Shown: positions 31,240 to 36,940 of the stretch, piece by piece
How positions within the stretch are numbered: the stretch's first letter is position 1
Layout: every line of letters begins with the position of its first letter
From: Persicirhabdus sediminis
Lineage (GTDB): Bacteria > Verrucomicrobiota > Verrucomicrobiia > Verrucomicrobiales > Akkermansiaceae
DNA: 64,000 bases
NCBI RefSeq assembly: GCF_016595495.1
Contig: NZ_JAENIM010000047.1
Span: 192,851 to 256,850, forward strand
Direction: 5' to 3'
The notes under the pieces: model-generated
What the model saw: only the letters and a program-made list of their open reading frames with translations
Databases searched by the model: none
What the model was told of the DNA's origin: nothing
Translations under genes and position numbers: made by a program

Positions 31240-31830
31240 AATAATAGCCACTCTCAAGTATCTGTATTATACAGATACTTTTTAAACCATCTAACTAAGC
31301 ATCTGCTCTATGCACTATGCTGGCATTCTCTGGATTCCAAAACTAGCCACGCTTAGGTACCTGTATTGCACAGATACTTACCAAACCATCTAACTAAGTA
31401 TAAGCATCTTCACTATGCAGACATTCTCTGGCTTTCAACACTAGTCGACCCAAGTACCTGTATTCCACAGCTACTTTTCAAACCTCCTGAGCGACCAAGC
31501 CTAAGAACCTGGATTGCACAGGTTCTCTCCAATTTCCAAAACTAACCACGACTAGATACCTGTATTGTACAGCTACTCACCAAACCATCTAACTAAGCAT
31601 AAGTAGCTGCACTATGCTGGCATTCTCTGGCTTCCAAAACTAGTCGACCCAAGTACCTGTACTATACAGCTAATTTTTAGACCTCCTGAGCGGCCCAGCC
31701 CAAGAATCTGTATTGCACAGGTTCTCTCCAATTCCCAAAACTAGCCACGCCTATGTACCTGTATTATACAGATACTTACCAAGCTATCTAACTAAGGTGT
31801 AAGTATCAGTCTTGCTCTGACATTCTCAAA
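31240..31830. repeat. 199-bp higher-order repeat of hairpins
   Basis: The phrase aacta(g/a)ccacg recurs at 31341, 31540 and 31739, exactly 199 bp apart. Inside each unit are three related hairpins built on acctgtattgcacaggt. The best is a perfect 11-bp stem AAGTATCTGTA/TACAGATACTT with a 3-base loop at 31256-31280; another has perfect 8-bp arms AGAACCTG/CAGGTTCT near 31504-31526. The phrases ccatctaactaag and actatgct(g)gcattctctgg also recur. No reading frame of note crosses it. The stretch 31831-31937 shows nothing further. Confidence 0.85.
31256..31284 (+). terminator. Possible terminator at start of the hairpin array
   Basis: The first hairpin of the array (11-bp perfect stem, 31256-31280) is followed by further Ts (31279-31283) and lies 64 bp after the stop of the 423-aa gene, as a Rho-independent terminator would. 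Confidence 0.5.
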
Positions 31831-31937
31831 TTTCCGCCACTGGCTGGAGATTTCCGATACGCGCACACCTAACAAAACAAAAAAATGATTAGCAGCGGCA
31901 AGGTCTTACAGGACGAGGTTATGGATGATTAACTTGC

Positions 31938-32408
31938 TCAGATTTCTTTACCGTCGATGTCTGTGATTTCCAGCTGCGGCTGGGTGGCTTGCAGTTTCTC
32001 GGCGATGGCGGGAAATTCTTTGGCGGGTACTTCGAAATAGATTTCATCGTCAGCCACAGTGGCGCAAAGCATGAGCGCGTCACCATTTTGACCAAATACG
32101 CTGACCGATTTCAGCTGGCTGATAGGTACTTTTTTTAGCTGGTCAGATTTGACTAACATCAAATTTCTAGTGATCAGATTGTCATCATCTAGCTGGACCT
32201 CGCTGAGATAGTTTTGAGATCTATCAGTGAGGCCGCGATAGGCGTAGGTAAATAACCAGCCGCACCAGATTAACATGATTGGATGAGCTAGAGAAATTGG
32301 CCACAGCGGCACGCTGAGTACGGCCCACAAGCCAGCCATGCCCATGAGTGAACAGATCACTGGCATGATGGCCGATTTTTCCTGCTTTTGTGAACTTCGA
32401 TAGATCAT
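31938..32408 (-). CDS. Membrane protein with PH-like C-terminal half
   Basis: A 156-residue protein with two membrane segments (about 14-30 and 38-55, IMPVICSLMGMAGLWAVL and PIMLIWCGWLFTYAYRG) and a soluble part of alternating hydrophobic strands (NYLSEVQLDDDNLITRNLMLVKSDQLKKVPISQLKSVSVF). That layout resembles bacterial PH-domain (DUF304-type) membrane proteins. The match is structural guesswork. Repeats lie on both sides. Confidence 0.65.
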   Translation of the reverse strand: MIYRSSQKQEKSAIMPVICSLMGMAGLWAVLSVPLWPISLAHPIMLIWCGWLFTYAYRGLTDRSQNYLSEVQLDDDNLITRNLMLVKSDQLKKVPISQLKSVSVFGQNGDALMLCATVADDEIYFEVPAKEFPAIAEKLQATQPQLEITDIDGKEI

Positions 32409-32557
32409 TAGAAAATAATCTCGCAGGTGGATTGGATAGATGGAAGAGAAAACCGTTGGATGGTGGATAGATAGGGGCTAATTCCGTAGATAGGGGGAAT
32501 TCCGGCTCTTCTATATCCACACGCATTCAGGGGCTAGTGGCTTGCGACGGTTTATAG

Positions 32558-33185
32558 CACACTTTCAGCGTGCGCCATTCTGGCTGACTCTCTCCCCATG
32601 GCTGAAGCCATGGGCTTTGTTCTGACGCGCTTTCAGCGCAGTTCAAATAGATCCACGTTCATGTGGAGTCTATCAACTGTGACGGTTTCTAGCACACTTT
32701 CAGCGTGCGATATTCTGGCTGACTCTCTCCCCATGGCTGAAGCCATGGGCTTTGTTCTGGTGCGCTTTCAGCGCAGTGTGGATAGATCCACGTTCATGCG
32801 AAGTCTAGCAACGGCGACGGTTTCTAGCACACTTTCAGCGTGCGATATTCTGGCTGACTCTCTCCCCATGGCTGAAGCCATGGGCTTTGTTCTGGTGCGC
32901 TTTCAGCGCAGTTCAGATAGATCCACGTTCATGCGGAGTCTAGCAACGGCGACGATTTCTAGCACACTTTCAGCGTGCGCCATTCTGGCTGACTCTCTCC
33001 CCATGGCTGAAGCTATGGGCTTCGTTCTGACGCGCTTTAAGCGCAGTGTGAATAGATCCACGTTCATGCGGAGTCTAGCAACTGTGACGGTTTCTAGCAC
33101 ACTTTCAGCGTGCGCCATTCTGGCTGACTCTCTCCCTATGGCTGAAGTTCTGACGCGCTTTCAGCGCAGTGTGAATGAATCCGCA
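32558..33185. repeat. 135-bp tandem repeat, five units
   Basis: Units start at about 32558, 32692, 32827, 32962 and 33097. Each contains GCAC(A)CTTTCAGCGTGC, CCCATGGCTGAAGCCATGGG, GCGCTTTCAGCGC and GTGGATAGATCCAC, all self-complementary around GAA/TTC, GA or AG centres. The period is a multiple of three and copies are well conserved, which keeps long open frames on both strands without evidence of coding. The bases 32409-32557 show no gene. Confidence 0.92.
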
Positions 33186-33231
33186 CGGGTAGACATGTAA
33201 ATGGCTGGTTCAGCTTCGACGGCCGATAGCT

Positions 33232-33602
33232 CAGAGCGGTGCTAAAGCACCAGCAGTCTAGAAGTCACAGCTGAAACCTCGTCTGATAGAATTTATCTAC
33301 CTTCAGGACGCAGTCCGAACCTTAGGGCGAAGCCCAACCTTAGGGCCCAGCCCGTCCCCCAGACCGGAGGCTGAACCTACAGAGCGGTGCTGAAGCACCG
33401 GCAGTCTAGAAGTCACAGCTGAAACCTCGTCTGATAGAATTTTTCTACCTTCAGGACGCAGTCCGAACCTTAGGGCGAAGTCCGAACCTTAGGGCGCAGC
33501 CCGTCCCCCAGACCGGAGGCTGAACCTACAGAGCGGTGCTGAAGCACCAGCAGTCTAGAAGTCACAGCTGAAACCTCGTCTGATAGAATTTTTCTACCCT
33601 CA
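33232..33602. repeat. ~148-bp tandem repeat, about 2.5 units
   Basis: Units start at cagagcggtgct at 33232, 33380 and 33529. Each carries GGTGCT-GA-AGCACC, then mini-hairpins GGAC-GCA-GTCC, GGGC-GAA-GCCC and GGGC-GCA-GCCC separated by cgaacctta. The last unit runs into the 19-bp array. Confidence 0.9.
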
Positions 33603-33849
33603 GGACGAAGTCCGAACCTTAGCGCGAAGTCCGAACCTTAGCGCGAAGTCCGAACCTTAGCGCGAAGCCCGAACCTTAGGACGAAGTCCGTACCTTAGCG
33701 CGAAGTCCGTACCTTAGCGCGAAGTCCGTACCTTAGGAGGAAGCCCGAACCTTAGCGCGAAGCCCGTACCTTAGGACGAAGCCCGCACCTTAGGGCGCAG
33801 CCCGCACCTTAGCCCGCAGGGCGTACTTGCAGGGCGCAGCCCGCACCTT
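33603..33849. repeat. 19-bp tandem repeat, 13 units
   Basis: Head-to-tail 19-mers of the type g(g/c)(a/g)cgaag(t/c)ccgaacctta. Variants swap the stem between GGAC/GTCC and GGGC/GCCC around a GAA or GCA centre, although several units (gcgcgaagtcc) break the stem. No spacers, so this is not CRISPR. The array ends next to the stop of the DsrE-like gene. Confidence 0.92.
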
Positions 33850-33857
33850 TTTACAGC

Positions 33858-34187
33858 TTAGAGGAAATCACATCGATAGGCATTCATGATGTGGCGAATG
33901 TCGTTGATGCAGGCGACGCGGCCGACATTGAGCTGTTTGGCGATGCCGTAGTATTCTAGGCAGGTGCCGCAGAAATACAGCTGGGCGCCGGCGGCTTCTA
34001 GCTGGACGAGCAGCGGCTGAATTCTGTCGTCGGTGAGCACTTGCACGCCGCGATTATAGAATGCGTAGACGATTTTGACGTCGTCATTTTCCAGTGAACT
34101 TTTCAGATATTTTTCCAGCAAGATGAGTGACAGCTCGGGCACGCCATCCCCCATTCCTAAACGCGATACAACAACAGCTCTTTCCAT
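33858..34187 (-). CDS. DsrE/DsrF-like (YedF C-terminal type) sulfur-handling protein
   Basis: A 109-residue DsrE-fold protein. The cysteines in YFCGTCLEYYG match those of YedF/DsrE-family proteins associated with persulfide or selenium chemistry, but the N-terminal TusA-like half of YedF is absent. Start MERAVVVSRLGMGDG. Its role here is not defined by neighbours: repeats follow it and a divergent kinase-like gene lies 257 bp upstream. Confidence 0.75.
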   Translation of the reverse strand: MERAVVVSRLGMGDGVPELSLILLEKYLKSSLENDDVKIVYAFYNRGVQVLTDDRIQPLLVQLEAAGAQLYFCGTCLEYYGIAKQLNVGRVACINDIRHIMNAYRCDFL

Positions 34188-34444: not shown

Positions 34445-34852
34445 ATGAGAAATCTCAAAGATGGAATTCGTTCACTGGTTCGCATTGACTACTATGGTCA
34501 CGTGCACAAATACTTTCGCGGCACGGATGCTGAGGCTCGCTTCGCTAACGAAGTGAAGATTCTAAAATTGCTAGAAGAGCGCGGCTGTGACTACGTGCCA
34601 AAGATGCTAGAAGCCCATGCTGATGAGCTGCATCTGGTAACGACTAACTGCGGCAGCCCAGCGCCAAAGATTTCTAAGAAGAAGAGCGACGGCATGTTTC
34701 AGGAGCTGGAGGACGTCTATGGTGTGCGCCACGATGATCCATTCGCGCGCAATATCACCTACTCAGAGCAGCTAGGCAGGTTTTGCATTATCGACTTTGA
34801 GCTGGCTACTGAGCTACCGATGCCTGAGCACCGAGCGACGCCAGAAGGCTAA
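34445..34852 (+). CDS. Minimal protein kinase-like protein
   Basis: Only 135 residues, but the landmarks of the kinase fold are present in order: a candidate ATP-anchoring Lys22 in VHKYFRG; the alpha-C Glu36 in RFANEVKILKLLEERG; a hinge-like ELHLVTTNCG; a catalytic loop H96-D-D98-P-F-A-R-N103 matching HxDxxxxN; and IIDFE (Asp117) in place of DFG. There is no recognisable glycine-rich loop and no C-terminal substrate lobe. It resembles RIO/Bud32-like or lipopolysaccharide-kinase-like small kinases. The PP2C gene begins 4 bp after its stop, so the pair is one transcript. Activity is inferred. Confidence 0.75.
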   Translation: MRNLKDGIRSLVRIDYYGHVHKYFRGTDAEARFANEVKILKLLEERGCDYVPKMLEAHADELHLVTTNCGSPAPKISKKKSDGMFQELEDVYGVRHDDPFARNITYSEQLGRFCIIDFELATELPMPEHRATPEG

Positions 34853-34855
34853 CGA

Positions 34856-35728
34856 ATGATTTCATCACCCATGTCTAATCCTTTTCTACCAGGAGCCCCG
34901 AAGGAATTTGATATGCTGCCCAAGCATACCTTTGAGTGGTCAGCCCGCTCCGTTTCCGGCAGCCGCAAAGAGATCAATGATGATTCGTGGATTGCCTTTG
35001 CCACTGGCGGCCAGCACGGCACAGTGATGCTGGCTACTGACGACGAGCGTACGATGGTCACGAGTGACCTGATCTACGCGGTGTCTGATGGTATGGGCGG
35101 CGGCAATGCTGGCAATGTGGCCTCGGCGCTGATTCTGGAATACCTCAGCGAGCACATCCCGGAGACGTTTCGAGCGGCGGCAGCTGGATTTTATCCAGAC
35201 TATCTAGCGCGGCTGGAAGATATCATTACCAAGATCCACCACGCCATTAACGAAAAGGGCGAGGCTGACGAAAACCGCAAAGGCATGGCTGCCACGCTGA
35301 CGCTGGCGTGGTTCACGCCGGATAACATGTATTTTGCCCACGTGGGAGACAGCCGACTGTATCGCTACCGTGACGGTGAGCTCCAGCAGCTCAGCCAGGA
35401 CCATACCTTTGTGTGGAAACAATTCCAGCGCGGCGAGATCAGCGAGCTGCAGTTCCGCAACCATCCACGGCGCTCAGCGCTGTATAATGTGATGGGCGGT
35501 GGCCATTTTTCCACCACCCCGCAGGTGGATGTGGTGGACTACAAACCTGGCGATAGATTCATGCTCTGCAGCGATGGTATCGTCGACGGATTGGGACAAA
35601 AAAGCATCGCTGGGGAATTTTCAGAAAACCTAGACTCGACAAGCTCACTGGCAGACGCTTGCATCTCACGTGCTATTGAGAATGATGGCACGGACGATAC
35701 GACATTGATAACAATCTGCGTAAAATAA
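34856..35728 (+). CDS. PP2C-family serine/threonine phosphatase
   Basis: A 290-residue metal-dependent phosphatase. PP2C motifs in order: SRKEINDDSW (about 36-45), YAVSDGMGGGNAGNVAS (about 78-94), ATLTLAWF, FAHVGDSRLYRYRDGELQQLSQDHT (about 161-185), MLCSDGIVDGL and NDGTDDTTLITI. All metal-binding aspartates appear present. It follows the mini-kinase by 4 bp, so the two probably form a kinase/phosphatase switch. A sigma-54 promoter for glnII starts 22 bp after its stop. Confidence 0.92.
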   Translation: MISSPMSNPFLPGAPKEFDMLPKHTFEWSARSVSGSRKEINDDSWIAFATGGQHGTVMLATDDERTMVTSDLIYAVSDGMGGGNAGNVASALILEYLSEHIPETFRAAAAGFYPDYLARLEDIITKIHHAINEKGEADENRKGMAATLTLAWFTPDNMYFAHVGDSRLYRYRDGELQQLSQDHTFVWKQFQRGEISELQFRNHPRRSALYNVMGGGHFSTTPQVDVVDYKPGDRFMLCSDGIVDGLGQKSIAGEFSENLDSTSSLADACISRAIENDGTDDTTLITICVK

Positions 35729-35749: not shown

Positions 35750-35766
35750 TTGGCACGCTAATTGCT
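35750..35766 (+). promoter_or_regulatory. Sigma-54 (RpoN) promoter of glnII
   Basis: TTGGCACGCTAATTGCT matches the -24/-12 consensus YTGGCACG-N4-TTGCW at every fixed position, with the GG and GC dinucleotides exactly 12 bases apart. It lies 89 bp upstream of the glnII ATG on the correct strand, with no gene between. Nitrogen control of glutamine synthetase by RpoN and an NtrC-type activator is well established in other bacteria; the activator gene is not in this window. Confidence 0.88.
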
Positions 35767-35854: not shown

Positions 35855-36865
35855 ATGGCAAAATATAGACTCGATTACCTCTGGTTAGACGGTTACACAC
35901 CAACTCAGAACATCCGCACAAAATGCATGCTCAAGGAGTTTGACGAATTTCCAACTCTCGAAGACCTCCCAGAATGGGGCTTTGACGGTTCATCCACTCA
36001 GCAAGCTGACGGCGGCGACTCTGACTGCGTACTTAAGCCAGTAGCTCTCTATCCTGACGGCACACGCCACAACGGCATCATCGTTATGTGTGAAGTAATG
36101 CTTCCAGACGGCACTGCACACCCAACTAACGCACGTGCCTCAATCATCGACGATCCAGACACATGGTTCGGCTTTGAGCAGGAGTACTTCCTCTACGAAG
36201 ACGGTGCACCACTCGGTTTCCCGAAAGACGGATACCCAGCACCACAAGGCCCTTACTACTGTGGCGTAGGCTACAAAAACGTAGGCAGCATCGCTCGCCA
36301 GATCGTTGACGAGCACCTTGAGCTTTGCCTTGAGGCAGGCATCAACCACGAAGGCATCAACGCCGAGGTTGCTAAAGGTCAGTGGGAATTCCAAGTATTC
36401 GCCAAAGGCTCCAAGAAAGCTGCTGACGATATCTGGGTAGCTCGCTTCCTCCTTCTCCGTCTCTGCGAACAGTTCGCACTCGACGTTGAGTGGCACTGTA
36501 AGCCAGTTAAAGGTGACTGGAACGGCTCAGGCATGCACTGTAACTTCTCTACTAAGCACCTCCGTGAAGTTGGTGGTAAAGAGTACTTCGAGAAGCTCAT
36601 GGCAGCATTCGAGAAATACACAGAAGAGCACATCGCTGTTTACGGTCCTTACAACGACCAGCGTCTCACAGGTCTTCACGAAACTCAGTCAATCGACATG
36701 TTCTCATGGGGCATCGCTGACCGTGGCGCATCTATCCGCGTACCACACAGCTTTCCTAAGAACGACTGGAAGGGTTACCTCGAAGATCGTCGTCCTAACT
36801 CAGAAGGCGACCCATACAAGATCGCTTCACGCGTTCTCCAGACTATCGCCACTGTGCCAGTCTAA
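35855..36865 (+). CDS. glnII: Glutamine synthetase, type II (eukaryote-like)
   Basis: A 336-residue enzyme making glutamine from glutamate, ammonia and ATP. Type II is shown by its short length and by LPEWGFDGSSTQQADG near the start, WFGFEQEYFLY (about 104-114), NAEVAKGQWEFQVF, NGSGMHCNFSTKHLR and IADRGASIRVP. The adenylylation loop of type I enzymes is absent. No CTAG is seen in the gene, unlike most neighbours, suggesting strong expression. It has a sigma-54 promoter and a strong terminator, so it is a single-gene unit. Confidence 0.95.
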   Translation: MAKYRLDYLWLDGYTPTQNIRTKCMLKEFDEFPTLEDLPEWGFDGSSTQQADGGDSDCVLKPVALYPDGTRHNGIIVMCEVMLPDGTAHPTNARASIIDDPDTWFGFEQEYFLYEDGAPLGFPKDGYPAPQGPYYCGVGYKNVGSIARQIVDEHLELCLEAGINHEGINAEVAKGQWEFQVFAKGSKKAADDIWVARFLLLRLCEQFALDVEWHCKPVKGDWNGSGMHCNFSTKHLREVGGKEYFEKLMAAFEKYTEEHIAVYGPYNDQRLTGLHETQSIDMFSWGIADRGASIRVPHSFPKNDWKGYLEDRRPNSEGDPYKIASRVLQTIATVPV

Positions 36866-36906: not shown

Positions 36907-36940
36907 AGCCGCCCGCAGCTCCAGCTGCGGGCGGCTTTTG
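36907..36940 (+). terminator. Rho-independent terminator of glnII
   Basis: Perfect 14-bp stem (36907-36920 with 36923-36936) with a 2-base centre, followed by a T-rich run, 42 bp after the glnII stop. Confidence 0.92.

Follow-up and report, generated by a model that had tools for sequence, protein, structure and literature searches.

In Persicirhabdus sediminis a 135 amino acid protein of predicted kinase fold is encoded directly ahead of a PP2C-type phosphatase and of glnII, the gene for a type II glutamine synthetase (GSII), and the fact that this kinase/PP2C pair travels with GSII through a group of bacteria points to a dedicated switch by which phosphorylation would turn a nitrogen-assimilating enzyme on and off. 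Our reading, to which we give a probability of about 0.55, is that an active minimal kinase and the PP2C form a writer-eraser pair devoted to ammonium assimilation through GSII. The wider statement, that a kinase of about 125-135 residues and a PP2C make up a GSII switch apart from GlnE and perhaps represent the smallest active protein-kinase fold, is tentative and in our view falls somewhat short of an even chance. The kinase fold and the PP2C are of known kinds; new relative to the literature matches listed are the reduced kinase, its fusion to PP2C and the tie to GSII. Among the open-access matches listed, none describes a kinase-PP2C pair with GSII in its title or the opening of its abstract.

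The DNA analysed (the window, 64,000 nucleotides) is part of a 4.17 Mb genome with a single copy of the kinase; among named relatives, Akkermansiaceae and further Verrucomicrobiota come closest to it. The kinase gene (34445..34852, plus strand; ORF list, alignment and fold model) is followed by the gene for the 290 amino acid PP2C (P0002; 34856..35728, plus strand). The first-pass annotation had described a complete PP2C gene straight after the kinase, which is the case, and a 4 bp gap, which is in fact a spacer of three bases (34853-34855) separating the stop codon of the kinase from the ATG of the PP2C. Going by this spacing the two genes would be translationally coupled. A sigma-54-like -24/-12 site (TGGCACGCTAATTGCT, 35751..35766, plus strand; exact match to TGGCAYRNNNNTTGCW) begins 22 bases past the PP2C stop, where the same annotation had placed it, ahead of glnII (35855..36865, plus strand; 336 amino acids, identified by ORF and profile match). 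It is the sole match in the window at one mismatch or less, and alone proves little since about four such matches are expected by chance. Strict sites of this kind stand ahead of glnII in 22 of the 34 loci with glnII downstream (near-copies counted), in 3/8 loci where glnII is upstream on the kinase strand (one site being about 440 bases away) and in 1/24 loci with divergent glnII, so that the site is common in one arrangement only. The hairpin scan gave no terminator between kinase, PP2C and glnII; the terminator-like hairpin 3' of glnII (36907..36936, plus strand) is weak, because one was found against a mean of 2.4 in shuffled sequences. Upstream of the kinase the window carries several tandem-repeat arrays (31335-33849; periods 199, 135, 149, 57 and 19), one of which contains a repetitive 200 amino acid ORF that is maybe no gene, and a 109 amino acid ORF on the minus strand (33858-34187), which by eye we take to resemble a DsrE/YedF-type protein.

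The scan of genome contigs with the kinase yielded 215 relatives. The 80 retained are, by their record titles, from Verrucomicrobiota apart from four from Planctomycetota. The residues named from the single sequence as candidate active site, i.e. K22, E36, the catalytic loop H96-x-D98-x4-N103 and the metal loop D117-F118-E119, proved to be correct and are invariant in 110/110 sequences (window and near-copies counted), including His96, Asp98 and Asp117, whose conservation in homologues had been made a condition for the kinase assignment. For this count all 110 sequences were taken, 105 of them distinct across the first 125 residues, with the first letter of every sequence set to M. This invariant catalytic set argues for kinase activity. 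Near the N-terminus K5 is kept in 108/108 kinases with a residue at that column and R9 in 107/110, and to judge from the sequences these two residues may stand in for the absent glycine loop. The alignment (A1) comprised 91 rows, P0001 plus 90 from the remaining 109 loci; those left out were 16 near-copies, L010, and L003 and L091 (cut start). The kinase tree was built from 104 of the 110 sequences, without L003, L091 and four identical rows.

The AlphaFold model made on the kinase alignment has a kinase fold (pLDDT 94.7, pTM 0.87), as do the structural matches by Foldseek and VIA-align, and the check on which the first-pass annotation had staked the kinase identity thus came out in its favour. 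The N-lobe has five strands (b1 at residues 2-6, b2 at 10-14, b3 with K22, then helix aC with E36, b4 and b5), after which follow the hinge, helix aE (78-92), the catalytic loop, b7-b8 and the DFE motif; past the latter come a single short strand at 121-123 and a tail modelled with low confidence. The marks of the protein-kinase-like superfamily are present, including the fold itself, the b3-Lys/aC-Glu pair, the catalytic Asp and Asn, and the metal-binding Asp. Alignment and model agree that there is no glycine-rich loop, the place of which is taken by a tight b1-b2 hairpin at residues 7-9 without GxGxxG, and the substrate-lobe helices aF-aI are absent, the model containing no helix of at least four residues beyond position 92; both had been anticipated from the sequence. 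The top Foldseek match is Ark1 (E 5e-8, TM 0.69 on the query). In VIA-align RIO2 scored Z 13.1 (2.9 A over 120 residues) and Ark1 Z 12.5 (3.4 A over 116 residues), and as RIO2, RIO1, PRPK and Ark1 lie within one Z unit (13.1-12.5) no single closest fold is to be named.

A chance ORF or a remnant of a bigger kinase was rejected: relatives are present in 118 of 145 family genomes, conservation falls off beyond about residue 127, and the modelled fusion has no displaced lobe. Weak profile matches, or matches to other kinases, were seen outside the class in G331 (a methyltransferase-kinase fusion), G165, G462, G482, G487 and G557. By eye, another locus (L141:4635-6002) encodes a methyltransferase-like protein joined to a kinase of similarly small size that has no glycine loop, an arrangement which we regard as reminiscent of WbdD, and the next gene is glycosyltransferase-like.

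The phosphatase is intact, P0002 matching Pfam PP2C_2 with 1.3e-17 and 64.5 bits (cut-off 24); against the NCBIfam Stp1 model it reaches 156.6 bits (cut-off 230), and by sequence the closest solved structures are PstP and tPphA entries. Kinase and PP2C form one ORF of about 400 amino acids in 25 of the 110 loci, L078 having been entered among the unfused loci even though there the kinase ORF continues into the PP2C until the frame breaks. In the 25 fused proteins, on which the PP2C fold is likewise seen, every Asp of the PP2C motifs is conserved without exception; these residues bind metal. The model of one fusion (L008; pLDDT 88.1) shows the kinase up to about residue 124, a short linker and the PP2C from residue 135, and contains no extra or hidden C-lobe between kinase and PP2C. 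The presence of a PP2C partner argues for a protein as the substrate of the kinase. In one genome (G014) two kinases are found in frames of 411-412 amino acids, each with a PP2C and a GSII of its own; their identity to the query is 72% and 47-48%.

The tie of the pair to nitrogen control, suggested at first by position only, gains support from the several orientations in which glnII adjoins the kinase, from co-occurrence of kinase and GSII, and from PP2C genes which stand at glnII without the kinase. Counting near-copies, glnII is in the flank of 67 of the 110 kinase loci: on the kinase strand it lies downstream in 34 and upstream in 8, and otherwise it is divergent upstream in 24 and convergent in 1. 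In the sample of phylum genomes all 52 kinase genomes have GSII, and in 43 of these the kinase lies within 3 kb of glnII (37 divergent, 6 downstream on the same strand). This linkage argues for GSII, or the control of GSII, as the target. In the nine remaining genomes, counted against the GSII-switch reading, kinase and GSII are apart: in four (G006, G010, G018, G029) the kinase is beside the magnesium transporter gene mgtE and the PP2C divergent beside glnII, and in five (G246, G255, G261, G335, G357) the kinase is beside PP2C with glnII elsewhere. Neither glnII nor mgtE is seen in 16 of the 105 distinct loci, with at least 2.5 kb on each side. GSII was found in 27 kinase-less genomes, and in the 18 of them examined for PP2C beside GSII no PP2C match (E<=1e-6) was present in any of the 18 stretches, some of which are short or cut by a contig end. 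An amtB-like ammonium transporter gene (by eye) adjoins the divergent glnII in L051, L053, L054, L060, L063, L079 and L211. In L168 (G036) and other genomes of genus g16, two adjoining GSII genes are located beside a kinase-PP2C fusion, one belonging to the kinase-linked clade and the other to the 57-59% kind.

One branch of the kinase (L005, L013, L206 and others) has its gene after mgtE, the mgtE match ending 0-31 bases ahead of the kinase and about 170 in G047 (L158). The 13 mgtE rows fall in one 15-row group of the kinase tree together with L010 and L027 (weak support, 83/54), at both of which mgtE was looked for and not detected; from these sequences the adjacency is probably one event, and we do not favour MgtE as the main partner of the kinase. 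It might still serve as a further target, or as a magnesium input. Loss of PP2C in this branch was ruled out, since of the 11 genomes checked with the kinase beside mgtE nine keep a PP2C divergent beside glnII; in the other two, G022 and G041, kinase, PP2C and glnII are all apart, which counts against the GSII-switch reading.

For the co-occurrence an evenly drawn sample of 288 phylum genomes was searched with the kinase profile (E<=0.001). It matched 54 genomes, two of which (G165, G331) carry other kinases, leaving 52, all in one class of the phylum. With GSII present in 58 genomes, the table reads 52 with both, 6 with GSII only, none with kinase only and 230 with neither (Fisher test 6e-51, the genomes being treated as independent though they are related). 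In the family sample (n=145) the corresponding numbers are 114 with both, 4 with kinase only (G003, G019, G085 and G109, three of the four less than 85% complete), 4 with GSII only (G004, G016 and G076, with a 58-61% GSII, and G088, whose GSII match is without start) and 23 with neither. Genus g3, which we take to be Akkermansia, has neither gene in its 20 listed genomes. In Planctomycetota (n=246) the kinase was found in one genome (G404) and GSII in 18; planctomycete-labelled kinase loci are L058 (within G404), L061, L072 and L078. In the GSII tree (76 of 89 sequences, near-copies being left out) the GSIIs linked to a kinase fall into one clade (100/100), outside of which are L166 and L171 with very different linked GSIIs; G516 has a GSII inside the clade and no kinase, and is counted against the GSII-switch reading. 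As the kinase follows one GSII clade, the co-occurrence is strong evidence of linkage but counts few independent events. The pattern would fit a trio that arose once, was lost jointly in g3 and was passed to a few planctomycetes, with the kinase/PP2C/glnII arrangement changing several times within that history. No Ser, Thr or Tyr is common to all kinase-linked GSIIs and absent from unlinked ones, which likewise counts against the GSII-switch reading. S186, T233, Y244 and Y308 of GSII mark the kinase clade, with the exceptions of L166, which has none of the four, L171, which has only Y308, and the kinase-less G516, which has all four.

In the mechanism we propose, Mg-ATP would be held between the N-lobe and the short catalytic segment by K22/E36, D98, N103 and D117, and the target would be recognised without a substrate lobe, probably through direct docking. 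The kinase would then phosphorylate GSII itself, which is most likely, or a protein acting on GSII, and the PP2C would take the phosphate off again. Like these steps, the sign of the control and nitrogen or energy status as its input belong to the proposed part of the reading. If this is true, GSII, the sole glutamine synthetase detected in the window genome (the catalytic domain of glutamine synthetase is matched once; controls 14/14), has its own writer and eraser, and a kinase fold functions at about half the usual size. Two questions become directly testable, namely the post-translational control of bacterial GSII and the minimum kinase fold needed for phosphotransfer.

The main rival target is PII, the kinase phosphorylating Ser49 of the T-loop and the PP2C reversing it, which we think unlikely. 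PII is present in 10/10 kinase genomes tested and in 0/3 genomes of genus g3, which is kinase-less and GSII-less, but also in the two other kinase-less genomes tested (G165 and G516), and its sites are far from the kinase in all ten kinase genomes. The T-loop YRGSEY, with Ser49, occurs in at least one PII copy of 9/9 Verrucomicrobiota kinase genomes tested and is missing from the copies compared in G516 and G165, a pattern confounded by phylogeny; in the kinase genome G404, whose locus is labelled Planctomycetaceae, Ala49 is found in 3/3 aligned PII copies, a fourth not aligning. The closeness of the phosphatase to tPphA speaks for PII, as does amtB near glnII in six loci, mostly with Opitutales/Opitutaceae labels, and in L211. 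In Synechococcus the PII phosphatase PphA is known, and a 2015 review (PMC4285133) gives the PII kinase of cyanobacteria as unidentified; if PII were the target, the pair would offer a candidate model of that kinase. Under a different explanation, again an improbable one, the small protein is a non-catalytic sensor of ATP or Mg-ATP acting allosterically on the fused or coupled PP2C or on GSII; the model without glycine loop or substrate lobe, the kinase-PP2C fusions and the branch beside mgtE would all suit it, but the full catalytic set including D98 and N103 is invariant, and a protein that only senses would have no need to retain the catalytic Asp.

The link to GSII may also be an inherited neighbourhood devoid of function, with the pair regulating MgtE, general physiology or something else. 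That the kinase association is nearly one clade in the GSII tree and that one kinase branch is beside mgtE instead are consistent with this, but the pair stays in touch with glnII in several orientations, as does PP2C without kinase, and the g3 genomes lack both kinase and GSII, so that we give this explanation a small chance. Smaller still is that of an RNA kinase of the archaeal ArkI type. It is suggested by Ark1 as top Foldseek match and by the DFE motif and missing subdomains VIII and X of ArkI, as given in its description (PMC9095486), and is opposed by the HxD with invariant Asp, by the lack of a P-loop and of a post-DFE helix, and by a gene linkage which is to PP2C and glnII. We keep a writer-eraser pair dedicated to GSII as the preferred reading.

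Compared with known systems, the kinase is like the ArkI/Ark1 tRNA kinase (COG2112) in its small kinase fold, its DFE metal loop and its reduced C-lobe. According to the same description (PMC9095486) ArkI has a P-loop, HGQ, further C-terminal helices including one with a YKR motif, and a tRNA substrate, whereas the present family has HxD in place of HGQ and shows neither P-loop nor YKR helix. By sequence there are matches to the APH (PF01636) and Kdo (PF06293) families: all 91 aligned members match APH at E<=1 (best 9e-10) and 47 match Kdo, but the window kinase alone stays below both cut-offs (0.012 for APH, with 15.9 bits against a curated cut-off of 23.2, and 0.032 for Kdo), its match being confined to the catalytic segment 92-122. 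The profile of 91 kinases searched against solved structures gave CDC7 kinase (3.4e-4) and CK2 alpha' (0.006). RIO1/RIO2 and Bud32/PRPK can be superposed on the kinase in N-lobe, catalytic loop and metal site (ranks 1-5, Z 12.9-13.1), but the top five chains have 223-292 residues as opposed to about 125-135, and no RIO or Bud32 model was among the Pfam/NCBIfam matches listed (25 of 28 families for the aligned members). RIO and Bud32 kinases also have other partners.

GlnE adenylylates glutamine synthetase and is a system of reversible covalent control. If the switch reading is right, the kinase/PP2C pair would likewise exert reversible covalent control of glutamine synthetase, with the differences that the group is phosphate and not AMP, that the enzyme is GSII and not GSI, and that the profile search of the window genome for GlnE gave no match (controls 3/14). 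The phosphatase shares with Stp1/PstP and cyanobacterial PphA the PP2C fold and the motif Asp residues seen in the fused homologues, and unlike these it has a minimal kinase as fusion or coupling partner and is tied to glnII.
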